Shown: piece after piece, positions 31,586 to 43,122 of the stretch
Numbering within the stretch: position 1 is the first letter of the stretch
How the letters are laid out: each line of letters begins with the position of its first letter
Origin: Pseudomonadota bacterium
Lineage (GTDB): Bacteria; Pseudomonadota; Gammaproteobacteria; Burkholderiales; Burkholderiaceae_C
Assembly (NCBI GenBank): GCA_021819435.1
Contig: JAKARB010000004.1
Span: forward strand, 1 to 64,000
Reading direction: 5' to 3'
DNA: 64,000 nt
Program-made: the position numbers and the translations under genes
The notes under the pieces: generated by a model
Database searches by the model: none
What the model was told of the DNA's origin: nothing
What the model saw: only the letters and a program-made list of their open reading frames with translations

Positions 31586-32644
31586 TCAGGCCGGCATCAG
31601 GAAGTCGCGGCTGATGCCATAGCCCAAGTCGCCCACGCGGTCGAGGAACTGCGTGAGGTAGGCGTGCAGGCCGGTGGCCACGATCTCGTCGATGCGGCTG
31701 AACTGCAGGTCGGCGCGCAGCCGGCCAGCTCGGCGCAGGGTCTCGTGGCTGTGGTCGTTGGCCACGGCGCGCAGGTTGCTCACCACCTCATCCATGCAGT
31801 AGACGAGCGAGCGGGGCATCTCGGCACGCAGGATCAGCAGCTCCGCCACTTTCTCGGGGCGGATGACGTTGCGGTAGACCTTGCGGTAGACCTCGAAGGC
31901 CGAGACCGAGCGCAACACGGCCGACCAGTGGTAGAAGTCGACCTCCTTGCCCTCGTTGCCCACGCCCGAGCCGAAGAACTCGGTGTTGCGGGCGTGGAAC
32001 TTCACGTCGAGCAGGCGCGCGGTGTTGTCTGCGCGCTCCAGGAAGGTGCCGATGCGCTGGAAGTGGAAGGACTCGTCTTGCAGCATGGTGCCCAGCGTCA
32101 CGCCGCGCGAGAGGTGCGAGCGGAACTTCACCCACTCGAACAGCTCGGCAGGGTCTTTCGCCAGCGCGCCCGCCTTGATGAGGCGGTTGAACTCCAGCCA
32201 GGTCTGGTTCATCGTCTCCCAGACCTCGGTGGTGAGCGCGCCTCGCACCGCACGAGCGTTCTCGCGTGCCGCACGCAAGCAGTTGAGGATGCTCGACGGG
32301 TTGGTGGCGTCGGTGACCATGAAGGCCATGACATCGCGCGCGTTGACCTCGTCGTGCTTGTTGCGGTACTCCTGCATGAGCTCGCTGATGCTCAGCAGGC
32401 CCTGCCAGCCTTGCATGGCCGCCTCGTTGGACTGAGGCAGCAGCGACGTCTGGTAATTGACGTCGAGCAGGCGCGCGGTGTTTTCGGCGCGCTCCATGTA
32501 ACGGGCCATCCAGAAGAGGTGGTCGGCGGTGCGCGACAGCATGGGCTTGGTCTCCAGGTGCGAAGCGCTTGCTGCGCGCAAGGCCCCGGTTTCGGTCTCG
32601 ATCAGTTGGGTAGGCAGGTGGTCTTCGATGCGTTCGTTGAGCAT
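31586..32644 (-). CDS. Alpha-E domain protein (DUF403/COG2307)
   Basis: 352-aa all-helical protein. The alpha-E signature SRTADHLFWMARYMERAENTAR lies at about residues 37-58, and a repeat-like ERADNTARLLDVKFHARNTE occurs in the second half. It has no known catalytic residues. In the family these proteins are encoded beside circularly permuted ATP-grasp enzymes and transglutaminase-like proteins, and are thought to assist amide-ligation chemistry. The gene is second in a two-gene operon, 13 bp after the ATP-grasp gene, with GGAGG 8 bp before its ATG. Compare the fused copy at 36163-38763. Confidence 0.92.
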   Translation of the reverse strand: MLNERIEDHLPTQLIETETGALRAASASHLETKPMLSRTADHLFWMARYMERAENTARLLDVNYQTSLLPQSNEAAMQGWQGLLSISELMQEYRNKHDEVNARDVMAFMVTDATNPSSILNCLRAARENARAVRGALTTEVWETMNQTWLEFNRLIKAGALAKDPAELFEWVKFRSHLSRGVTLGTMLQDESFHFQRIGTFLERADNTARLLDVKFHARNTEFFGSGVGNEGKEVDFYHWSAVLRSVSAFEVYRKVYRNVIRPEKVAELLILRAEMPRSLVYCMDEVVSNLRAVANDHSHETLRRAGRLRADLQFSRIDEIVATGLHAYLTQFLDRVGDLGYGISRDFLMPA

Positions 32645-32657
32645 GGCCGGGCCTCCG

Positions 32658-34103
32658 TCAGTTCTCCAGCACCCAGGTGTCCTTGGTGCCGCCGCCTTGC
32701 GAGCTGTTGACCACCAGCGAGCCTTCTTTCAAAGCCACGCGGGTGAGGCCGCCTGGCACCATCTGCACGGTCTTGCCAGAAAGCACGAAGGGCCGCAGGT
32801 CGATGTGGCGTGGCGCGATGCCGCTTTCCACGAAGGTCGGGCAAGTCGACAGCGACAGCGTGGGCTGGGCGATGTAGTTGCTCGGGTTGGCGAGCAAGGC
32901 CCGACGGAAATCTTCGATCTGGGCCTTGGTGGAGGCCGGCCCCACCAACATGCCGTAGCCGCCCGCGCCGTGCACTTCCTTGACGACGAGCTCGCCCAGG
33001 TGGTCGAGCGTGTATTGCAGGTCGGCCTTGTCGCGGCAGATGTACGTGGGCACGTTCTGCAGGATGGGTTTCTCGCCGAGGTAGAACTCGATCATCTTGG
33101 GCACGTAGGGGTAGATCGACTTGTCGTCGGCAATCCCCGTGCCGAAAGCGTTGGCCAGCGTGACGTTGCCAGCGCGATAAGCGCGCAGCAGACCGGCCAC
33201 GCCCAGAGTCGAGTCCTTGCGGAAGACCTCCGGGTCCATGAAGTCGTCGTCGACGCGGCGGTAGATGACATCCACGCGCTGCGGCCCGCGCGTGGTGCGC
33301 ATGTAGACGAAGTCGTCCTTGACGAAGAGGTCCTTGCCTTCGACCAGCTCGATGCCCATCTGCTGCGCCAGGAAGGCGTGCTCGAAGTAGGCCGAGTTGT
33401 ACATGCCGGGGGTGAGCACCACTGCGGTCGGCTCGTTGACCGAGGCCGGCGCCAGCGCGCGCAGGGTGTCGAGCAGCAGATCGGGGTAATGCGCCACGGG
33501 CGCGATGCGGTGCTCAGAGAACAGCTCGGGGAAGAGCCGCATCATCATCTTGCGGTTCTCCAGCATGTAGCTCACGCCGGAGGGCACGCGCAGGTTGTCT
33601 TCGAGCACGTAGTAGGTGCCGCTGCCATCGGGGTTGCAGGCCCGCACGATGTCGATGCCCGAGATGATGGAGTAGATGCCGCCGGGCACGTTCACGCCCA
33701 TCATCTCCTTGCGGAACTGGGCGTTGTTGAGCACGGGCTCGGCCGGGATGACGCCTGCCTTCAAGATCTCCTGGCCGTGGTAGATGTCATCGAGGAATCG
33801 GTTGAGCGCGGCAACGCGCTGCTTGAGCCCCTTTTCCATCTCCTTCCACTCGTGGCTGGGGATGATGCGCGGGATCAGGTCGAAGGGGATGAGGCGCTCA
33901 GTGCCCGAGCCGTCCTCGTCCTTGTCGCCGTAGACCGCGAAGGTGATGCCCACGCGGCGGAAGATCATCTCGGCTTCGTCGCGCCGGGAAGACATCAACT
34001 CCTGCGGCTGGCGGCCGAGCCAGCGTTCGTAGGTTCGGTAATGGTCGCGCACCTGCTTGTCGGCGCCGGCGCTGCTGGCATGCATCTCGTCGAAGAATCG
34101 CAT
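32658..34103 (-). CDS. Circularly permuted ATP-grasp protein (COG2308)
   Basis: 481 aa from the ATG at 34103 (MRFFDEMHASS), which follows AAGAGGG. Family landmarks: GVNVPGGIYSIISGIDIVRA, the nucleotide-binding stretch VVLTPGMYNSAYFEHAFLA, and VKEVHGAGGYGMLVGP, where an ATP-grasp Gly-rich loop is expected. It ends with GGGTKDTWVLEN, shared with the larger paralogue. Permuted ATP-grasp enzymes of this group are predicted to form an amide or peptide bond via an acyl phosphate; no product is established. It is the first gene of the operon and lies behind a sigma-54-like promoter (34150-34165). Confidence 0.93.
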   Translation of the reverse strand: MRFFDEMHASSAGADKQVRDHYRTYERWLGRQPQELMSSRRDEAEMIFRRVGITFAVYGDKDEDGSGTERLIPFDLIPRIIPSHEWKEMEKGLKQRVAALNRFLDDIYHGQEILKAGVIPAEPVLNNAQFRKEMMGVNVPGGIYSIISGIDIVRACNPDGSGTYYVLEDNLRVPSGVSYMLENRKMMMRLFPELFSEHRIAPVAHYPDLLLDTLRALAPASVNEPTAVVLTPGMYNSAYFEHAFLAQQMGIELVEGKDLFVKDDFVYMRTTRGPQRVDVIYRRVDDDFMDPEVFRKDSTLGVAGLLRAYRAGNVTLANAFGTGIADDKSIYPYVPKMIEFYLGEKPILQNVPTYICRDKADLQYTLDHLGELVVKEVHGAGGYGMLVGPASTKAQIEDFRRALLANPSNYIAQPTLSLSTCPTFVESGIAPRHIDLRPFVLSGKTVQMVPGGLTRVALKEGSLVVNSSQGGGTKDTWVLEN

Positions 34104-34394
34104 CGGTTGACCCTCTTGGGGCTTTCGGAAACAGCGGTGACCGAGCAGATGCACTAACTGTGCCAGGTTACGGTACTTGCACCAAGTCAGGTTCCGCGGC
34201 CGTGGTTGCAGGCATGGCTCACGCAACATGATGGTGCAAAAGCAAGCTCACATGGTGCAAAACAGAGCGGTGGCAACGGTGTTTCAGGGGGCTTCAAGCA
34301 CCCATGCGCCATGGCGGTGCATGGGTGCGCTTGGCTACGCAGCGTGGTTTGTGCTGGCCCACATGGCCAGAGACATCACGGTGCGGGCAAAAGA
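34104..34394. other. Gene-free region with control sites of the ATP-grasp operon
   Basis: About 290 bp between the ATP-grasp start and the terminator of the PEP-CTERM gene. Besides the sigma-54-like promoter it holds two direct copies of ATGGTGCAAAA (34231-34241 and 34252-34262), 21 bp apart, and one inverted TTGCACCAA (34177-34185). GGTGCA/TGCACC is the half-site of NtrC. I see no convincing coding frame in the block. Confidence 0.5.
34150..34165 (-). promoter_or_regulatory. Sigma-54 (-24/-12) promoter of the ATP-grasp/alpha-E operon
   Basis: On the minus strand TGGCACAGTTAGTGCA: the -24 element TGGCAC is perfect, the -12 element is GTGCA (one off TTGCA), and the GG and GC dinucleotides have the invariant 10-bp gap. 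The expected start is about 35 nt before the ATP-grasp ATG. Assigned by eye. Confidence 0.65.
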
Positions 34395-34420
34395 AAAGCG
34401 GCACCTTTCGGTGCCGCTTT
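34395..34420 (-). terminator. Rho-independent terminator of the PEP-CTERM gene
   Basis: AAAGCGGCACC and GGTGCCGCTTT form a perfect 11-bp stem with a four-base loop. On the minus strand it is followed by TTCTTTTGCC. It begins 22 bp past the PEP-CTERM stop codon. Confidence 0.85.
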
Positions 34421-34441
34421 GCATCTGGCCTGATCCTGCGT

Positions 34442-35059
34442 TCAAGCGCCAGTTCGCGGTGCACGCCGCTGACGCCGAGCCCAGGCGACCACGGCGATCA
34501 GACCCATGGCGCCCATGGCGAGCGTGGAGGCCTCCGGCGCGGGCGAAGCGACGGCGCTGAACGAGTACTGCCACTCGTTCACGGGCCACCAGCCGTCGGG
34601 AGACGGCACCGGGGTGCCGATGATCCGCAAGGTGTACTCACCCTCCAGGAGCCGCGAGAAGGTGAAATGGACTGGGTCTGCGCTCGGGTTGAACGAATAG
34701 CTGTCCAGCAGGTTCCCGGAGCCGGCGGCGAACAACTCGACCCCGGTGAAGGTGTACGGCGACTCACCCGTTGAAGGCGAGCGCCAAACCGACCCGGCCT
34801 GTCCGACGATGTCGGTGAACCGCTGGGATGGCGCGACGGACTGGTCCTGCCAACTGATGAAGAAGCTGTGGTCGCGGTAGAAGGAGCCGGGCTCCGGGGC
34901 GTAAGGCTGGCCGCCATGCAGGTTGCCCCCACCCGCCACCCCCGAGCCCGGGCTCAGGTTGGTTTGAGCCTGAGCGAATGCATGCGCGCCGATGCAGGCG
35001 GCGACCAAGACGAGTTGGCTGAGCTTGCTGAACTTGCGGAACTCTGGAGATGCGTTCAC
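34442..35059 (-). CDS. PEP-CTERM sorting-domain protein
   Basis: 205 aa from a GTG at 35059 preceded by GAGGG; no ATG is better placed. It has a signal peptide (LVLVAACIGAHAFAQAQ), a small beta-rich, Trp/Tyr/Ser-rich domain, and the C-terminal sorting signal APEASTLAMGAMGLIAVVAW followed by ARRQRR, a variant of PEP with Ala between Glu and Ser. Such proteins are processed by exosortase (EpsH) and displayed at the surface or in exopolysaccharide. Exosortase genes are not in the window. The gene lies between the two ATP-grasp operons but has its own terminator, so functional linkage is only positional. Confidence 0.85.
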   Translation of the reverse strand: MNASPEFRKFSKLSQLVLVAACIGAHAFAQAQTNLSPGSGVAGGGNLHGGQPYAPEPGSFYRDHSFFISWQDQSVAPSQRFTDIVGQAGSVWRSPSTGESPYTFTGVELFAAGSGNLLDSYSFNPSADPVHFTFSRLLEGEYTLRIIGTPVPSPDGWWPVNEWQYSFSAVASPAPEASTLAMGAMGLIAVVAWARRQRRAPRTGA

Positions 35060-35086
35060 GTTCGACCCTCGGGATTTTGATGAGCG

Positions 35087-35127
35087 AAAAAAAGGGGTGT
35101 ATCCCAATGCGGAAGCCTCCACACCCC
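35087..35127 (-). terminator. Second intrinsic terminator, in the PEP-CTERM leader
   Basis: On the minus strand GGGGTGT, a 20-base loop, ACACCCC and seven T residues (35087-35093). It lies only 27 bp upstream of the PEP-CTERM start codon. Either it is a back-up terminator for the transglutaminase operon or a leader attenuator. Confidence 0.6.
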
Positions 35128-35144
35128 CGAATCCGGGTGGTCAT

Positions 35145-35170
35145 CAAAAAAAGCGCCCCCAAAAGGGGCA
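35145..35170 (-). terminator. Terminator of the transglutaminase/ATP-grasp operon
   Basis: GCCCC TTTT GGGGGC followed by GCTTTTTTT on the minus strand, about 50 bp past the stop of the last gene (35219). Confidence 0.75.
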
Positions 35171-35218
35171 AAAAAGCGACAAGTCGACCACCCATCCCCC
35201 TAAGAAGCGGACAAGGTT

Positions 35219-36166
35219 TCAGCCTTCGTTTTGCAAGCGGGTGGTCACGCGCACCACCAACTGATGGCGCCCGCCGCCTCGGATCACCCCGCGCAGCGGC
35301 GTGACATCGCCGAAGTCTCGTCCATGGGCCACGCGCACATGGTGCACGCCGGGCACGCAGTCGTTGGTGGGGTCGAGGTCGAGCCAGTCATCGGCCAGCG
35401 GCAGGCCCAGCCCCGGCACCCAGACGCTGAGCCAGGCGTGCGAGGCGTCGGCCCCCACCAAGGGCGCCTCGCCTGGCGGCGGGAGGGTCAGCAGGTAGCC
35501 GCTGACGTAGCGAGCGGCCAAGCCGCACGCGCGCAGGCAGCCCAGCATGAGGTGGGCGAAGTCTTGGCAGACACCCTGGCGACGCTCGAACACCTCCAAG
35601 ATGGGCGTGGAGATGTCGGTGGAAGCTGGCGCGTAGGTGAAGTCGCGGTGGATGCGCTGCATCAGCTCGATGACGGCTTCTGCCAGCGGGCGATCATCGG
35701 CCAGGGAGACACCGGCGTAGGCCCGCAACTCCGGGTGCAAGGGCACGAAAGACGAGGCGTAGAGGAACTCGCTGGCGGCCTCGAACGGGGCGTGAGCGAA
35801 ATAGGCCAGGCGTTGACGCACTTCGCCGCAGGTCGGGCCACTCGTGGCGTCCAGCTCGCGATATCGGTGCAGCACCTCGACCTCGCTTCGGGCCTGCACG
35901 CGCAGCTCGGCGTGCGCCGCGTGCATGGCGAAATAGGCGCGGCTGTTGCCATGGCTGTCGCGCCGGACGCTGTGCTGGGCGGGCGTGGGCTCCACCACCA
36001 TGTCGAAGGACAGCAGTCGCTGCCCGCCATCGGAGAGCGGGCGCAAGCAGGCGATGTGCTGCGACTGCTCCACCGGGTTGTCGTAGTGGTAGAGCGTTTC
36101 GTGCTCGACAGACAGCCGGGCGCTGCCGACTTCGGGCGTCGACACGGGCGGACACAGCAGGGTCAT
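35219..36166 (-). CDS. Transglutaminase-like cysteine protease family protein
   Basis: 315 aa. An N-terminal bacterial transglutaminase-like region (SVEHETLYHYDNPVEQSQHI) precedes the papain-like core, with the triad Cys200 (RRQGVCQDFAHL), His243 (ADASHAWLSVWVPG) and Asp265 (WLDLDPTND). It has no signal peptide. In this family the enzyme may cleave or transfer amide bonds. Last gene of the three-gene operon; its start overlaps the stop of the ATP-grasp-alpha-E gene (ATGA). The terminator lies just downstream. Confidence 0.92.
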   Translation of the reverse strand: MTLLCPPVSTPEVGSARLSVEHETLYHYDNPVEQSQHIACLRPLSDGGQRLLSFDMVVEPTPAQHSVRRDSHGNSRAYFAMHAAHAELRVQARSEVEVLHRYRELDATSGPTCGEVRQRLAYFAHAPFEAASEFLYASSFVPLHPELRAYAGVSLADDRPLAEAVIELMQRIHRDFTYAPASTDISTPILEVFERRQGVCQDFAHLMLGCLRACGLAARYVSGYLLTLPPPGEAPLVGADASHAWLSVWVPGLGLPLADDWLDLDPTNDCVPGVHHVRVAHGRDFGDVTPLRGVIRGGGRHQLVVRVTTRLQNEG

Positions 36167-38763
36167 GCGCTCACCATGGAGTCGTTGGGCTCGGCATGCA
36201 CGAAATACTGGCGGGCGATTTCGTCGGAGAGGCGCCAGCCGGCGTCCAGCAGACGATCACACAAGGCCAGCACGCGAGCATGGCCCTCGACCGGCGAGCA
36301 AAGCGCGTCGAGCTCGACGCCGACGCCCTGGTGCGGCAGCAACACCAACAGGTCGTCGTGCAGGCCAGTGCGGTCGGGCAGCTTGCCCAGCTCGGTGCGC
36401 AGGCGGCGCAGCACGCAGGCCAGCGCGCGCGGGTTGCTTTCGTCGTGCACCAACAGGGCCAGCAAGGCCGGCACTTCCAGGCGACGCTGGAAGCGCGCGC
36501 GGAAGGTGATGGCGCTGTCGAACAGGTCAAGCAACTGGTCGAAGCCTTGCGCCTGGGCCAGGGCGTGCTGTTCCCAGAACGCACGCAGGAAGCCTGTGTA
36601 ACCCACAAGCCGCTCGATCAGTCGACCCACGGTGAGCAGGCGCCAGCCCACGTCGCGGGTCATGCGGTCGGTCTGGGCGCCGGTGACGGCGGCGAGTTGC
36701 ACGGCGAGTTGCTCCAGCGCGGCATCGGCCTGTTGCAAGCCAGGATGCTGACCGGTGGGCACATCCTGGATGAGGGCTTGGCGGAAGTTTTCGCCCAGGC
36801 TGCGCAGCAGGCGGGCGTGGGCGGGCGACAGGCGCTCGCGCAGCGATTGCGACGAGCGCGAAAGCGCCTCGAGGTTGTAGCCCAGGCTGAACGCGCCCTG
36901 GGTGGCCTGCTCATCGGAGAGGGCGTCGAGCACGGCACGCTCAAACACGCGCGGCGACTTGTGCAGCGGGGGAGCGCCCGGCGGCACGAGGCCGTTGAGG
37001 CGGGCGAGGTCTGAGAGCGCCTGCAGCACGTGCTCGTCGGCATCGTCCTCGCTGGTCTGCAGGCTCAGCAGGCCTTGCACGAGGCGCAACTGCTGCTCGG
37101 CCCGCTCGGTGTAGCGGCCCATCCAGAAGAGGTTCTCTCCAGTGCGGCTGGCCACAGGGCGCTGGCGCTGGGCGAGCTCATCAGCGCGCACGGCGCTGGG
37201 CAGCATCGAGAAGGTGTCGACCGCCTCTTCGGTGAGCACCCAGGTGTCCATCGAGCTGCCGCCCAACTGCATGGAGACGGGACCGGCGTCGCGCGTGGCG
37301 ATGCGGGTCATGCCGCCGGGCAGCACCTGCCAGCCACCTTGCCCATCAGACAAGGCATAGACGCGCAGCGAGGCCCCGCGCATGGCGATGTGCCCGCCCT
37401 GCCAGACCGGCGCCTGCGCGTAAGGCACGAAGCCTTGCACGGTGTAGGCCGCCGGGTCATGGCCGATGCGCTCGCGCCAGCTCTGCAAGGCGGGTTGGGA
37501 CAAGGTCTGGCCCAGCACCGCGTCAAAGCTTTGGCGCAGGCGCGGCGAGCCGAAGCCAGGCGTGCCGGCATAGGGATAGCTGGGGCGGATGACCTGGTGG
37601 GCGAGATCGGGCTCGATGTCCGCCCAGGCCGAGGCTTCGCCGCACCACCAGGTCGGCAGCGAAGGCAGGCTGAGTTCTTCATCCAGCAGATGCCGGGACA
37701 AGGCGGGCAGGAAGCCGTGCACTGCGGGCGATTCAAGGAAGCCGGTGCCCAGGGCGTTGGCCAGCACCACGTGACCGGCGCGCACCGCCTGCATCAAACC
37801 GGGCACGCCGAGGTGCGAATCGGCGCGCAGCTCCAGTGGGTCGCAGAAGTCATCGTCCAGGCGGCGCAGCAGGCCATGCAAGGGCTCCAGGCCCTGCACG
37901 GTCTTGAGGAAGAGCCGTTCATCGCGCACGACGAGGTCGCCACCTTCGACCAGGGGCAGGCCCAGGTAGCGCGCCAGGTAGGCCTGCTCGAAATAGGTTT
38001 CGTTGTAGGGCCCGGGGGTGAGCAGGGCCAGGCGGGGCGAGAGGCCATCGGCACAGGGCAGCGCCAGCTCGGTGAGGGTGTCGACCAGGCGGCGGTAGCC
38101 CGAAGCCAGGTGCTGCACGTTCATCGCCCGGTAGGCATCGGGGAACTGGCGTGAGACGATGAGCCGGTTCTGCATCACGTAGCCCAGGCCAGATGGCGCC
38201 TGCGTGCGGTGCGAGACCACCCACCACGAGCCATCGGGCCCGCGCACCAGGTCGAAAGCCAGCACGTGCAGGTAGACGCCGCCGGGCGGGGTCACGCCCT
38301 GCATGCCGCGCAGGTAGCCCGGGTGGCCCAGCACCAGGGCCGATGGCAGCAATGCCTGTTTCAGCAGGTTTTGCTCGCCATAGGTGTCGGACAGGATGGC
38401 GTTGAGCAGGCGTGCGCGCTGGGCCACGCCCTGTTCGATGCCAAGCCACTCTTGCGCGCCGATGATGTGCGGCAGCACCTCCAGCGACCACGGCCGGCTG
38501 GGACCGCCTTGGGAGTTGTAGACGTTGTAGGTGATGCCGTCTTCGCGGATCTGCCGGGCCATGAGGTCCTGGCGGCGCTGGAGGTCGTCCAGCGGGGCGC
38601 CGAGGTGCTGCGCGAAGTCTCGCCACAGGGGCCGCAAGGCGCCCTCCTCCTCGCGCAGCTCATCGAAATGCCCAGGCTCCACCGGCCGGGCGCGGCGCAG
38701 CAGGTCCTGGGCCGCGTTCGGGTCCGGTCCGGTGTCGTCGAAAAGAGGCAGGTTGGCTGTCAC
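36163..38763 (-). CDS. Circularly permuted ATP-grasp / alpha-E fusion protein
   Basis: 866 aa. Residues 1 to about 525 align in layout with the stand-alone ATP-grasp protein (GVTPPGGVYLHVLAFDLVRG, LLTPGPYNETYFEQAYLARY, ending GGSSMDTWVLTEE). From about residue 545 the alpha-E signature ASRTGENLFWMGRYTERAEQ starts the second domain. So the two proteins encoded at 31586-34103 exist here as one chain, arguing that they work together. Predicted role: ATP-dependent amide-bond synthesis. It overlaps the transglutaminase gene by four bases and follows the DUF2126 gene by 15 bp. Confidence 0.93.
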   Translation of the reverse strand: MTANLPLFDDTGPDPNAAQDLLRRARPVEPGHFDELREEEGALRPLWRDFAQHLGAPLDDLQRRQDLMARQIREDGITYNVYNSQGGPSRPWSLEVLPHIIGAQEWLGIEQGVAQRARLLNAILSDTYGEQNLLKQALLPSALVLGHPGYLRGMQGVTPPGGVYLHVLAFDLVRGPDGSWWVVSHRTQAPSGLGYVMQNRLIVSRQFPDAYRAMNVQHLASGYRRLVDTLTELALPCADGLSPRLALLTPGPYNETYFEQAYLARYLGLPLVEGGDLVVRDERLFLKTVQGLEPLHGLLRRLDDDFCDPLELRADSHLGVPGLMQAVRAGHVVLANALGTGFLESPAVHGFLPALSRHLLDEELSLPSLPTWWCGEASAWADIEPDLAHQVIRPSYPYAGTPGFGSPRLRQSFDAVLGQTLSQPALQSWRERIGHDPAAYTVQGFVPYAQAPVWQGGHIAMRGASLRVYALSDGQGGWQVLPGGMTRIATRDAGPVSMQLGGSSMDTWVLTEEAVDTFSMLPSAVRADELAQRQRPVASRTGENLFWMGRYTERAEQQLRLVQGLLSLQTSEDDADEHVLQALSDLARLNGLVPPGAPPLHKSPRVFERAVLDALSDEQATQGAFSLGYNLEALSRSSQSLRERLSPAHARLLRSLGENFRQALIQDVPTGQHPGLQQADAALEQLAVQLAAVTGAQTDRMTRDVGWRLLTVGRLIERLVGYTGFLRAFWEQHALAQAQGFDQLLDLFDSAITFRARFQRRLEVPALLALLVHDESNPRALACVLRRLRTELGKLPDRTGLHDDLLVLLPHQGVGVELDALCSPVEGHARVLALCDRLLDAGWRLSDEIARQYFVHAEPNDSMVSA

Positions 38764-38778
38764 GATCCTGACATCGTA

Positions 38779-41700
38779 TCAACCGCCCTTGGCTTTGCGC
38801 AGATCCAGCGTGAGCGGATGTTCCAGCCCGGCGGGAAGAGGTCGCACATCCATCGCGCCCGGTGTGTGGCCCATGCGGAAGAAGCGCGCCAGGCGCCGGC
38901 TTTCGGCCTCGTAGGAGTTGACGGGGAAGGTGTCGTAGTTGCGGCCGCCCGGGTGCGCGACGTGGTACTGGCAGCCGCCCAGCGAGCGCTTGAGCCAGGT
39001 GTCGACCAGGTCGAAGGTGAGCGGCGCGTCGACGCCGATGGTGGGGTGCAGGCACGAAGGCGGCTGCCAGGCGCGGTAGCGCACACCGGCCACGAACTCG
39101 CCAACGCGGCCCGTGGGATGCAGCGGCAGCACGCGGCCGTTGACCGTGACCACGTGACGGTTGCCATTCAGGCCAGTGGCGCGCACCTCCAGGCGCTCCA
39201 TGGACGAATCCACGTAGCGCACGGTACCTCCTGGTGCACCCTCTTCACCCATCACGTGCCAGGGCTCGAGTGCACCGCGCAAGGTCAGGCGCACACCGGC
39301 CGTCTGCACTTCGCCGATGTAGGGGAAGCGGAACTCGAAGTGCGGCGCGAACCACTCGGGCTGGAAGTCGAAGCCGGCCATCTGCAGCTCGGCCAGCACG
39401 TCGGCAAAGTCCTGCTCGACGAAGCTGGGCAGCATGAAGCGGTCGTGCAGGCCCGTGCCCCAGCGGGTCAGGCGGGTGGCGCCGTGGCCCTGGTAAGGCG
39501 TCTTCCAGAACCACGCGATCAGGGCGCGCAACAGCAGTTGCTGCACCAGGCTCATCTTCGCGTGGGGCGGCATCTCGAAAGCGCGCAGCTCAAGCAAGCC
39601 GAGGCGTCCGGTCGGGCCATCGGGCGAGTAGAGCTTGTCGATGCAGAACTCGCTGCGATGGGTGTTGCCGGTGGCGTCGATCAGCAGGTTGCGCAGCGTG
39701 CGGTCGATGAGCCAGGGCGGGCACTGGCCCCAGATGGCCATCTGGCGCTCGATCTCCTTCATGCCGATCTCGGCCTCGTAGACCTGGTCCATGCGCGCTT
39801 CGTCGATGCGTGGCGCCTGGCTGGTCGGGCCGATGAACAGGCCCGAGAACAGGTAGGACAACGAAGGGTGGTTGTGCCAGAAGGTCAGCAGGCTGGGGAT
39901 GAGATCGGGGCGGCGCAGGAAGGGGCTGTCGGCCGGCGTGGCCCCGCCCAGCACGAAGTGGTTGCCGCCGCCGGTGCCGGTGTGGCGGCCGTCGACCATG
40001 AACTTCTCGGTGGACAGGCGGGTTTCGTGCGCGGCCTGGTAGAGGAACTCGGTGTGGTCGACCAGTTGGCCCCAGTTCGACGCCGGATGGATGTTGACCT
40101 CGATGACGCCGGGGTCGGGCGTGACCTGGAGTACCTTCAGGCGGGCGTCGCGCGGCGGCGGGTAGCCTTCGAGCACGATCTTCAAGCCGGTCTCGGCGGC
40201 GGTGGCTTCGACGGCGGCGAGCAGGTCGAGGTAGTCGTCCAGGCTGGCCAGCGGAGGCATGAACACGTAGAGCACGCCGCCGCCCTTGCCTTCGGCCTCG
40301 ACCTTGGGGCCACTGGCGCGGTCGGGATTGCGGGCCTCCACGCACAACGCGGTGCGCGTGATCCAGTGCGCCGACTCGAAGCGGTTGGGGTGCTTGGCCG
40401 GGTCCACATCCGAAGGCGTGGCGGGGCCTGCGGCCGCGACGACCGGGTTGGCGGCCAGGTCGCCCCACTCGCCATTGACACCCTCACCGCCCAGGCCTTC
40501 AATCGGCTGCCCCTGGATGGAGACCGCCCCACCCTGCGCGAACCCACCGCCCACGGCATGCGGCCCGTATTGAGCCCGCAAGGCGGCGGCATCGGCCAGC
40601 GGCGCGCGGGGTGCAAACGGATCGTGGTGATGCATGAAGGGGTACTGCCCGCGCGTGACCCAAGGCAGAGAGTCCAGCGGCAGGCGATAGCCCATCGACG
40701 AGTCCCCCGGGATCAGGTACATGCGCTCGTCGCGGAAGAACCAGGGCCCGGTGACCCAGCGCGGCCCGCTCAGGCCGGGCGCATGCTGCCACTCGCGCTT
40801 GAGCGGCAAGGCGTAGCCCACGGTGTGCGTGAGGCCCTGGTCGTAGACGCGGCGCAGGCGCACCCGTTCGAGCTCGTCGTCGAGCTTGGATTCGAAGGGG
40901 TCGACGTTGATCGGCAGGCGGCGCTCGCGCCACAGGTAGTACCAGGTGTCTTCAAACCCCGGCTGGATGTGGGCCGGCCCCACCCCCAACTTGTTCGACA
41001 AGGTCTCGATGAAGCGCTTGGCATCGTCGCTGGTGTAGTGCTCGGCCTGGCGTTCGTCGGCGAACAGGCTGGGGTCGTGCCAGCAGGGCTGGCCGTCGGT
41101 GCGCCAGAAGATGGACAGGGCCCAGCGCGGCAGTTGTTCGCCCGGGTACCACTTGCCCTGCCCGAAGTGCAGGAAGCCGCCTTCGCCATATTTGGCTCGC
41201 AGCTTGTGGACCAAGGTGGTGGCCAGGCCGCGCTTGGTGGGGCCGAGGGCATCGGTGTTCCACTCGGCGCCATCGCGGTCGTCGACCGACACGAAGGTGG
41301 GCTCGCCGCCCATGGTCAGGCGCACATCGCCCGTTTGCAGTTGGGCGTCCACCGCCTGGCCCAGCGTGTCGATCTCCGCCCACTGGTCTTCGGTGTAGGG
41401 CTTGGTCACGCGCGGCGATTCATAGATGCGCGTGATCGACATCTGGTGATCGAACTCGACCTCGCACTCGTCCACCGCGCCGCTGATGGGCGCCGCGCCT
41501 GATGGCTCGGGCGTGCAGGCCACGGGGATGTGGCCCTCGCCGGCCAGCAGGCCCGAGGTCGGATCCAGGCCGATCCAGCCCGCGCCGGGCAGGTAGACCT
41601 CGCACCAGGCGTGCAAGTCGGTGAAGTCGACCTCGGTGCCCGAGGGACCATCCAGCGCGGCCACGTCGGCCTTGAGCTGGATGAGGTAGCCCGAGACGAA

Positions 41701-42297
41701 GCGCGCGGCCAAGCCCATGTGGCGCAGCGTCTGCACCAGCAGCCAGCCCGTGTCGCGGCAGGAGCCGGACCGCTTGGTCAGCGTCTGCTCGGGCGTCTGC
41801 ACGCCGGGCTCCATGCGGATGGTGTAGGCGATGTCGCGTTGCAGGCGCTGGTTCAGTCCGACCAGGAAGTCGATGGTGCGCACCTCGCTGCGGTCGATGC
41901 TGTCGACAAAATCCTGGAACGCTGGCGTGAGCTCGCCTTTGACGAGGTAAGGCGCGAGGTCGTGGGCAGTGGCCTCGTCGTACTGGAAGGGGTAGTTCTC
42001 GGCGTGCGGTTCGAGGAAGAAGTCGAACGGGTTGTAGACCGCCATCTCGGCGACCAAGTCGATGGTGACCTTGAACTCTTGCGTGCGCTCGGGAAAGACC
42101 AGGCGGGCGAGGTGGTTGGCGAAGGCGTCTTGCTGCCAGTTGATGAAGTGCATCACCGGCTCGACCTTCATCGAGTACGAGAGGATGCGGGTGCGGCTGT
42201 GCGGCGCAGGGCGCAGGCGCACGACCTGGGGTGATAGGTTCACCAGCCGGTCATACCGGTAGTGGGTGACGTGATTCAGGGCAACGTGGATGGACAC
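38779..42297 (-). CDS. Transglutaminase-like / DUF2126 protein
   Basis: 1,172 aa from a GTG at 42297 that follows GGAG. An N-terminal transglutaminase-like domain has Cys180 (KRSGSCRDTGWLLVQ), His229 (FTDLHAWCEVYLPG) and Asp245 (GLDPTSGLLAGEGH). From about residue 300 to the end lies the large DUF2126 region (LTMGGEPTFVSVDDRDGAEW; GGNHFVLGGA; HRSEFCIDKLYSP), which has a glutamine-synthetase/GCS-like ligase appearance in the literature's view. The three-gene order ligase-like/ATP-grasp/transglutaminase suggests coupled making and breaking of amide bonds. First gene of the operon, behind a sigma-54-like promoter. Confidence 0.93.
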   Translation of the reverse strand: MSIHVALNHVTHYRYDRLVNLSPQVVRLRPAPHSRTRILSYSMKVEPVMHFINWQQDAFANHLARLVFPERTQEFKVTIDLVAEMAVYNPFDFFLEPHAENYPFQYDEATAHDLAPYLVKGELTPAFQDFVDSIDRSEVRTIDFLVGLNQRLQRDIAYTIRMEPGVQTPEQTLTKRSGSCRDTGWLLVQTLRHMGLAARFVSGYLIQLKADVAALDGPSGTEVDFTDLHAWCEVYLPGAGWIGLDPTSGLLAGEGHIPVACTPEPSGAAPISGAVDECEVEFDHQMSITRIYESPRVTKPYTEDQWAEIDTLGQAVDAQLQTGDVRLTMGGEPTFVSVDDRDGAEWNTDALGPTKRGLATTLVHKLRAKYGEGGFLHFGQGKWYPGEQLPRWALSIFWRTDGQPCWHDPSLFADERQAEHYTSDDAKRFIETLSNKLGVGPAHIQPGFEDTWYYLWRERRLPINVDPFESKLDDELERVRLRRVYDQGLTHTVGYALPLKREWQHAPGLSGPRWVTGPWFFRDERMYLIPGDSSMGYRLPLDSLPWVTRGQYPFMHHHDPFAPRAPLADAAALRAQYGPHAVGGGFAQGGAVSIQGQPIEGLGGEGVNGEWGDLAANPVVAAAGPATPSDVDPAKHPNRFESAHWITRTALCVEARNPDRASGPKVEAEGKGGGVLYVFMPPLASLDDYLDLLAAVEATAAETGLKIVLEGYPPPRDARLKVLQVTPDPGVIEVNIHPASNWGQLVDHTEFLYQAAHETRLSTEKFMVDGRHTGTGGGNHFVLGGATPADSPFLRRPDLIPSLLTFWHNHPSLSYLFSGLFIGPTSQAPRIDEARMDQVYEAEIGMKEIERQMAIWGQCPPWLIDRTLRNLLIDATGNTHRSEFCIDKLYSPDGPTGRLGLLELRAFEMPPHAKMSLVQQLLLRALIAWFWKTPYQGHGATRLTRWGTGLHDRFMLPSFVEQDFADVLAELQMAGFDFQPEWFAPHFEFRFPYIGEVQTAGVRLTLRGALEPWHVMGEEGAPGGTVRYVDSSMERLEVRATGLNGNRHVVTVNGRVLPLHPTGRVGEFVAGVRYRAWQPPSCLHPTIGVDAPLTFDLVDTWLKRSLGGCQYHVAHPGGRNYDTFPVNSYEAESRRLARFFRMGHTPGAMDVRPLPAGLEHPLTLDLRKAKGG

Positions 42298-42351
42298 GCG
42301 GATCTCCAACTTGGCGGACAGCCATCGATTGGCTGCGCTGAATGTGACACG

Positions 42352-42367
42352 AGCAAGTTGCGGACCA
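42352..42367 (-). promoter_or_regulatory. Sigma-54-like promoter of the DUF2126 operon
   Basis: On the minus strand TGGTCCGCAACTTGCT: the -12 element TTGCT is perfect, the -24 element TGGTCC differs from TGGCAC at two positions, and the GG/GC gap is 10 bp. The predicted start is about 43 nt before the GTG at 42297. Confidence 0.5.
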
Positions 42368-42393: not shown

Positions 42394-43122
42394 TCACCCT
42401 GTCACGGGTTTGGCCACAGCCGAGCCGTCGGCCTGCCACCAACGCGGCGCCATGGCGCACACCACCAGGGTCACGCTGACCACATCCTTGGGCAACACGA
42501 CTTCGGCCGGGCCACCTTGCCAGGGCGTGATCACCATCGAGTCTTCGCGGTCGAGGAGCAGTTTGCACAGGCGCAAGCCGCCCTTGCGCAGGGTGATCAG
42601 CACGAGGTCGTCGGGTTGCAGGGGCGAGTGCGGAGACAGCACCAGGTAGTGGCCGTCGGGCGCATAAGGCGCGAGGCCCTGCCCTTGCACGAGCATGGCG
42701 TGGCAGTGTTCGCCCATCCAGGGCAGGCCCAGAGAGCCGCCAGGGGCCGGCTGGGTCTTGGGCGTCCCCACGCGCTGAGCCACCTGCTTGCCATCGGCAC
42801 GCAAATGCACCACGCCATGAATGGGCACCCTCACGAGGGGGGTGCCCTCTTCTTCGCTGAGTGATTCGGCGGCAACCGGCGGGGCTTTCTCCAAAGGTTG
42901 CCCCTCGCCCCTGGCGAGCCAGTCGGCGCGCACGCCCAGCTCGCGGGCCAAGGCGGGCGTGTGCGAACTGCCTTGCGCCCCGGCATCGAGGTCACACAGG
43001 TATTGGATGGCCTGCGGTTTGACCCCGATGGCCCGAGCCAATTCGCTCTGGTTCGTGCGCCCGGCACGCCGCATGGCCCATCCCAGGCGACCGGCGTAAC
43101 TTTCCCACTCTCTGTTTTTCAT
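42394..43122 (-). CDS. CI-like repressor: HTH plus S24-like domain lacking the catalytic Ser
   Basis: 242 aa. Residues about 10-50 form an XRE helix-turn-helix (NQSELARAIGVKPQAIQYLC); the C-terminal half has the LexA/CI S24 fold (MLVQGQGLAPYAPDGHYLVL). In active S24 proteins the segment reads G-D-S-M-x-P; here it is G-Q-G-L-A-P, so the nucleophilic Ser is missing, and the usual Ala-Gly/Cys-Gly cleavage site appears as HG in VPIHGVV. It therefore should not self-cleave in the SOS response. It is divergent from a Cro-like gene, as in phage immunity regions, yet no phage genes are near. Confidence 0.85.
   Translation of the reverse strand: MKNREWESYAGRLGWAMRRAGRTNQSELARAIGVKPQAIQYLCDLDAGAQGSSHTPALARELGVRADWLARGEGQPLEKAPPVAAESLSEEEGTPLVRVPIHGVVHLRADGKQVAQRVGTPKTQPAPGGSLGLPWMGEHCHAMLVQGQGLAPYAPDGHYLVLSPHSPLQPDDLVLITLRKGGLRLCKLLLDREDSMVITPWQGGPAEVVLPKDVVSVTLVVCAMAPRWWQADGSAVAKPVTG

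Follow-up and report, generated by a model that had tools for sequence, protein, structure and literature searches.

A probable amide-ligase/amide-hydrolase system with a predicted pseudo-ligase, encoded by two operons in a relative of Aquabacterium parvum

We analysed a stretch of 64,000 nucleotides, hereafter the window, which comprises positions 1 to 64,000 of contig C6 in the 4.41-Mb genome (99.84% complete) of a relative of Aquabacterium parvum. Positions 31586–42309 of its minus strand contain five genes of the circularly permuted ATP-grasp, alpha-E, transglutaminase and DUF2126 families, all with very strong Pfam matches. We favour, with some reserve, the reading that this region encodes a single amide-ligase/amide-hydrolase system in two operons with sigma54-type promoters, to which the proteasome-like peptidase Anbu, encoded elsewhere in the genome, also belongs.

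Genes and sites of the locus

The five genes, the sites upstream of them and one further open reading frame (ORF) are as follows.

31586..32644, minus strand: aE, stand-alone alpha-E protein (PF04168, 338 bits)
32658..34103, minus strand: AGs, stand-alone circularly permuted ATP-grasp ligase (PF14403/PF04174; PF14403, 557 bits; start called by the ORF tool, 34229)
34151..34165, minus strand: sigma54-type site TGGCACAGTTAGTGC upstream of AGs (9/10 consensus positions; 62 bases 5' of ATG 34103)
34305..34321, minus strand: NtrC-like palindrome TGCACCGCCATGGCGCA upstream of the AGs sigma54-type site (11/12 positions)
34442..35122, minus strand: PEP-CTERM ORF between the two operons (PF07589, 22.0 bits; cut-off, 20.7)
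35219..36166, minus strand: TG, transglutaminase-like cysteine hydrolase/transferase (PF08379 and PF01841)
36163..38763, minus strand: FUS, ATP-grasp/alpha-E fusion, predicted pseudo-ligase (PF14403, 462 bits; PF04168, 171 bits)
38779..42294, minus strand: TGD, or TG-DUF2126, a transglutaminase domain with a PF09899 putative amidoligase domain (PF09899, 1330 bits; start called by the ORF tool, 42309)
42353..42367, minus strand: sigma54-like site TGGTCCGCAACTTGC upstream of TGD (8/10 consensus positions; 73 bases 5' of GTG 42294)

Transcription proceeds in the order TGD, FUS, TG, PEP-CTERM ORF, AGs, aE, and the translations of the five system genes contain no internal stops. AGs probably starts at ATG 34103, because homology to PDB entry 3n6x (expect value, E, 1.2e-212) begins at residue 46 of the longer ORF. 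Similarly, TGD probably starts at GTG 42294, since the resulting M-S-I-H matches the N-terminus of aligned relatives. The start of TG overlaps the stop of FUS (36163–36166), so FUS and TG are probably translationally coupled. The FUS protein is 93% identical to that of A. parvum.

An initial annotation of the window had described separate alpha-E and ATP-grasp genes beside an operon that combines their fusion with TG and TG-DUF2126. These genes were found where it had placed them: its upper boundary, 42297, lies a few bases from both candidate TGD starts (42294 and 42309), and the Pfam matches support its assignment to peptide-ligase families. Its description of two complete-looking clusters did not hold, inasmuch as the alpha-E/ATP-grasp pair has no adjoining TG or Anbu gene and the fused ATP-grasp lacks the E-x-N motif and the glycine loop.

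Residue conservation in AGs, FUS and the transglutaminases

We aligned 109 AGs proteins (107 distinct) and 124 FUS proteins (122 distinct), numbering AGs residues from ATG 34103. Residues E168, N170, K328, K375, E376 and D435, together with three loop glycines, were invariant in all 109 AGs sequences, including that of the window. The catalytic residues of AGs thus appear intact, and the protein is predicted to bind metal and nucleotide. The E168-x-N170 motif resembles in context E330-x-N332 of Escherichia coli Gss and E115-x-N117 of YgiC, which we take to bind Mg. A literature search on residue roles in Gss and glutathione synthetase yielded no useful support, and no sequence-profile alignment of AGs to Gss/YgiC (PF03738) was obtained; the assignment of metal ligands in AGs therefore rests on fold similarity, the E-x-N motif and the residue roles ascribed to Gss and glutathione synthetase. 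The ATP-grasp protein of the Yersinia Anbu operon is described as liberating phosphate from ATP (PMC6376114). The gene adjoining AGs in the window, aE, encodes a protein for which a sequence search against solved structures returned no match (best E, 1.7); stand-alone alpha-E copies carry ER motifs and other polar residues.

By contrast, none of the 124 FUS proteins retained E168, N170, K328 or E376 (AGs numbering), and none retained D435, with one gap at that position. The three loop glycines never occurred together, although they were found singly in 15, 14 and 6 sequences. The position of K375 was occupied by K in 84 and by R in 27 of the 124. In the FUS protein of the window, E-x-N triplets occur only at residues 130, 775 and 858, none of which is the metal site. 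Losses extended to the alpha-E part, in which two ER motifs were kept and E128, N129, E143, D206, R210, D213 and H327 were each present in at most 7 of 118 sequences. A structural model of FUS (predicted local distance difference test score, pLDDT, 84) had 3n6x and eukaryotic glutathione synthetases as its best PDB matches, which indicates that the ATP-grasp fold has been kept. The ATP-grasp residues were likewise missing from aligned fusions of Acidobacteria and Alphaproteobacteria and from six of seven class-level fusions, namely the six with a readable motif. In a phylogenetic tree, all 44 FUS were separated from all 49 AGs by a split with support of 1.0. Together, the spread of the losses across these groups and this split argue that the loss is old and stable. 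As judged from sequence, FUS is probably dead for ATP use, and the loss of metal ligands and loop glycines makes it improbable that it acts as a second canonical ligase. A lack of nucleotide-binding residues, which the initial annotation had named as speaking against its proposal, is thus seen in FUS and not in AGs.

Like some so-called pseudokinases, FUS might remain an enzyme with changed chemistry that acts through a new motif, with or without a nucleotide. A replacement motif, R-T/C-Q-A-P-S-G, is nearly invariant in FUS (R170 in 119 and Q172 in 118 of 124), and D151, R283, D285, D286 and R437 are kept in 120–123 of 124. This degree of constraint argues for a definite function of FUS, and the frequent K or R at position 375 would suit an enzyme. 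Nevertheless, the E-x-N motif, K328, E376, D435 and the glycine loop were lost jointly, and several alpha-E residues have gone from the same protein. We consider a catalytic FUS unlikely.

The two transglutaminase proteins, in turn, preserve their predicted active sites. The TG triad of C200, H243 and D265 was conserved in 115, 115 and 113 of 115 sequences, respectively, and C179/H228/D244 and E902/R904/E907 of TGD were invariant in 41 sequences. A DUF2126 model (pLDDT 63.5) was matched at E 0.001 by no PDB entry other than chains of the transglutaminase-like protease 3isr.

Co-inheritance, layout and promoter sites

The distribution of the genes was surveyed in a family sample of 150 genomes from 141 genera and a phylum sample of 120 genomes. 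Of the 150 family genomes, 130 had aE, 95 had DUF2126 and 121 had Anbu, and DUF2126 was never seen without aE (95/95). The phylum sample agreed: aE was present in 66 and DUF2126 in 39 of 120 genomes, and all 39 DUF2126 genomes had aE. Linkage was counted in 92 of the 95 family genomes with DUF2126, three being left out in which no separate alpha-E was among the matches listed. The two genes lay within 20 kb of each other in 72 of the 92 (median, 6.2 kb among the 72), which supports the adjacency of the two operons described initially. In the other 20, they were farther apart on the same contig (3) or on different contigs (17), many assemblies being fragmented. By hand count, all 38 phylum genomes with a fusion-size alpha-E also had a separate aE, and in 24 of these the two lay within 20 kb on one contig; these fusions were called by an open frame of at least 800 residues and not individually inspected.

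Layouts were compared in 60 family stretches, representing 60 of the 130 alpha-E genomes, chosen chiefly for the size of the contig and to cover different genera. Seven of these stretches were shifted to include the fusion or another place already known; the 72/92 linkage figure is free of this selection. For a further set of named loci, the best 80 were taken out of 590; almost all have betaproteobacterial titles. It shares two identical AGs and two identical FUS cores with the family sample, so the named set is not fully independent. The relatives showed a single operon-like row, AGs-aE-TGD-FUS-TG, the order of the window, TGD-FUS-TG-AGs-aE, and divergent operons. Outside the family, DUF2126 was found directly beside AGs-aE and Anbu with no FUS in the stretch; the class-level stretches with DUF2126 in AGs-aE(-Anbu) clusters lacking FUS were L176, L180, L184 and L192. 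Among the 117 FUS genes with enough sequence on their downstream side, 111 were followed directly by TG (28/28, 78/83 and 5/6); the six without it are perhaps in part an effect of the distance window, as four of the loci (L128, L161, L137 and L108) contain a TG gene. TGD preceded FUS in 84 of 112 cases. FUS-TG also occurs without DUF2126; L136, L147 and L172, for example, are fetched stretches that have the pair and lack a DUF2126 gene. Because the layouts vary in this way, we regard the modules of the system as a core of AGs-aE, to which Anbu may or may not be linked, TGD, and the FUS-TG pair.

Clustering of neighbouring ORFs revealed no further conserved partner, and the largest clusters look like antisense shadows. 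Two local additions were seen: L115 has an additional TG gene between TGD and FUS, and in Caballeronia sp. SL2Y3 a putative zinc-binding metallopeptidase gene (L087:3265-4326) lies between aE and TGD on the opposite strand.

The initial annotation had noted the absence of Anbu and proposed a variant system. At the level of the genome this was wrong: a search with a protein query located an Anbu gene on a separate contig, unlinked to the clusters of the window (C7, 71815–72552; L067:9716-10537; 53% identity to the query). The protein matched the Anbu structures 5loy (designed Anbu; E 7.8e-92), 5nyj (E 1.3e-70) and 5nyf (E 4.9e-70), and it contains T1, D17 and K32, the candidate catalytic residues of Anbu (PMC6376114). 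The Pfam proteasome model PF00227 had no match in this genome, a false negative for Anbu; searches of the gene against Pfam at E 10 and against NCBIfam at E 1 were also negative. As PF00227 misses this copy, model-based surveys can undercount Anbu, although the model did detect some Anbu genes in the family with low scores. Anbu was present in 120 of 130 alpha-E genomes as opposed to 1 of the 20 others in the family sample. The possibility that DUF2126 substitutes for Anbu was ruled out, 86 of the 95 DUF2126 genomes having Anbu. The gene adjoining Anbu was recognised by eye, with no family search, as pyrG; of 20 Anbu loci, only 5 had pyrG nearby.

Sigma54-type sites were scored by their match to TGGCAC-N5-TTGC, the GG and GC being obligatory. 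Over the whole window the pattern was at chance level (120 matches against a shuffle mean of 112.8), and the sites therefore rest on comparison with relatives. In the fetched loci, a site scoring at least 8/10 was found upstream of 49 of 61 family AGs genes, as compared to 413 of 3000 random 300-base stretches. For TGD genes with a DUF2126 score above 300, a limit that left out copies truncated at a stretch boundary, a site was present in 18 of 20 when TGD heads the transcript and in 1 of 15 when it is internal. The named loci behaved similarly, with sites at 21/23 AGs genes, 33/37 TGD genes heading a transcript, 5/56 FUS genes and 66/489 other genes; other genes in the family set had sites in 41/397. 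In this comparison of named and family promoters, a greedy gene filter kept 25/61 family AGs and 23/35 TGD genes.

NtrC-like palindromes matching at least 10 of 12 positions occurred upstream of 16/61 AGs genes, against 90/3000 controls, and were not clearly enriched upstream of TGD (2/35). The coordinates of palindrome TGCACCGCCATGGCGCA were computed from an offset of −218 relative to ATG 34103, and NtrC-like half-sites lie near it. The genome itself encodes two copies of rpoN and an NtrC scoring over its cut-off. In Burkholderia cenocepacia, I35_5080-5083 are common targets of NtrC and sigma54 (PMC5491218), and PP_2685-2688 of Pseudomonas putida are up on nitrogen limitation or nitrate and are described as likely controlled by NtrB/NtrC (PMC7801951, PMC8050072, PMC3325844). 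The sigma54 and NtrC sites of the window agree with these reports, and together they support the hint of nitrogen limitation in the initial annotation.

The PEP-CTERM ORF was judged a lineage-specific insertion outside the system: such an ORF is present in relatives L093, L094 and L107 and not in L095, L098, L099 and L100. A terminator-like hairpin is visible by eye 3' of it, near 34420. Directly upstream of TGD, ORF 42394–43122 has weak similarity, below all cut-offs, to helix-turn-helix and S24 peptidase families and could be a CI-like regulator. Beyond aE, a GDSL-type esterase gene (PF00657, 30404–31585), whose similarity to bacterial lysophospholipase models is below cut-off, converges on the alpha-E gene.

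Interpretation and closest known systems

From the observed gene set, sites, residue states and co-inheritance, we infer the following reactions. Under nitrogen limitation, NtrC and sigma54 would switch on AGs-aE and TGD-FUS-TG, as the recurring DNA sites suggest. With ATP and Mg, AGs would activate a carboxylate for amide formation, consistent with its residues, and aE would be its partner, since a fusion of ATP-grasp and alpha-E exists. DUF2126 may be a second, differently folded ligase tied to the transglutaminase domain, as its family name implies. FUS would be an AGs-aE copy in which the handling of ATP and Mg is lost and several other conserved residues are kept; because TG nearly always follows FUS, it probably presents or regulates the substrate for the TG cysteine hydrolase/transferase. 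Finally, Anbu, whose co-inheritance points to a role, may trim or degrade the product.

Several observations weigh against this single-system reading. The poor DUF2126 model gave no ligase match. The initial expectation that the operons are linked in relatives held in the family, with 20/92 not within 20 kb, and failed in part of the phylum sample, where by hand count the fusion and the separate alpha-E were not within 20 kb in 14/38 genomes. In 15 class-level upstream stretches of AGs, 5 sites reached 8/10 and just 2 lay within 100 bases of the start, so outside the family the sigma54 sites are not the rule. Unlinked Anbu genes showed little sigma54 enrichment (4/19 as opposed to 14% of random stretches), and Anbu is thus not visibly in the same regulon here. 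It can also be dispensable, as no Anbu match was obtained in 9 of the 95 family genomes with DUF2126. In published work, pull-downs with Yersinia bercovieri Anbu yielded no specific partners (PMC6376114), co-expression of Anbu with the proteins of its operon gave no different form of Anbu, and the authors of an Anbu structure judged a role in peptide synthesis less likely (PMC5666114).

Alternatively, the system could be a nitrogen-salvage unit for protein degradation, built on transglutaminase-type cysteine peptidases and Anbu, in which ligases mark or repackage peptides secondarily. The NtrC-like sites, the published induction on nitrogen limitation, the conserved triads of two TG domains and an Anbu with T1/D17/K32 would all fit such a unit. 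Yet, of the members seen, conservation is strictest in an ATP-dependent ligase, whose residues are intact, and purified Anbu is reported to cleave none of the standard proteasome substrates (PMC6376114); we regard this explanation as doubtful. The initial proposal, in which an amide-linked peptide is made by one operon and edited or remade by an independent set of paralogues in the other, is improbable: although the locus holds two ATP-grasp and two alpha-E domains and FUS has deeply diverged from AGs, both metal ligands are missing from the ATP-grasp part of the fusion in 124/124 sequences, in none of which all three loop glycines are present, DUF2126 stands directly in clusters without FUS (L176, L180, L184 and L192), and sigma54-type sites occur at both operons. 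One system fits better because regulation is shared, the genes consistently co-occur and single-operon layouts exist.

Within the family, Anbu and the ligases that accompany it are widespread. Under the single-system reading the search for their substrate is narrowed: of the two ligases, activity is expected of AGs and not of FUS, which is to be grouped with TG; a joint response of both operons to nitrogen limitation is expected, and Anbu is part of the system even when encoded far away. Very tentatively, FUS might be a dedicated ATP-dead copy of AGs-aE that keeps the acyl-substrate site and passes conjugates to the coupled TG, forming with AGs, DUF2126 and Anbu a bacterial conjugation/deconjugation system induced by nitrogen starvation, an analogue but not a relative of pupylation. 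No paper on a pseudo-ATP-grasp of the FUS kind, or on DUF2126, was found in the open-access literature search, nor did the FUS pseudo-ligase or the promoter that accompanies TGD as transcript head appear in it.

Among known proteins, the ATP-grasp part of FUS has the fold of eukaryotic glutathione synthetase. AGs shares the E-x-N motif with E. coli Gss and YgiC; FUS, unlike Gss/YgiC (PF03738), is without it, and the sequence profiles do not align.

We take PP_2687 of P. putida to be an alpha-E protein. It is described as hypothetical, and belongs to an operon, PP_2685-2688, which resembles the present genes in combining a proteasome-like beta subunit, a transglutaminase-domain protein and circularly permuted ATP-grasp genes; unlike here, that operon includes Anbu, and the passages on it mention neither DUF2126 nor a fusion (PMC7801951, PMC8050072, PMC3325844). 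B. cenocepacia I35_5080-5083 encode DUF404/407 (ATP-grasp), DUF403 (alpha-E), a transglutaminase-like and a large transglutaminase-like protein (PMC5491218), like the genes of the window, and the large protein, we infer, carries DUF2126; the passages on these genes contain no residue analysis of the ligase.

The window's layout is common in its family, and the system is of an already predicted kind. Iyer et al. (2009) reportedly predicted a system of permuted ATP-grasp, permuted GS-like ligase, Ntn-peptidase and alpha-helical domain, whose GS-like ligase is presumably DUF2126. The domain set is the same as here, comprising PF14403, PF04168, transglutaminases, DUF2126 and Anbu. That system, as cited in PMC5666114, PMC6376114 and PMC3597751, differs from the present one in that here Anbu is unlinked, the genes are divided between two operons, each with a sigma54-type site, and the fusion is a predicted inactive ligase.

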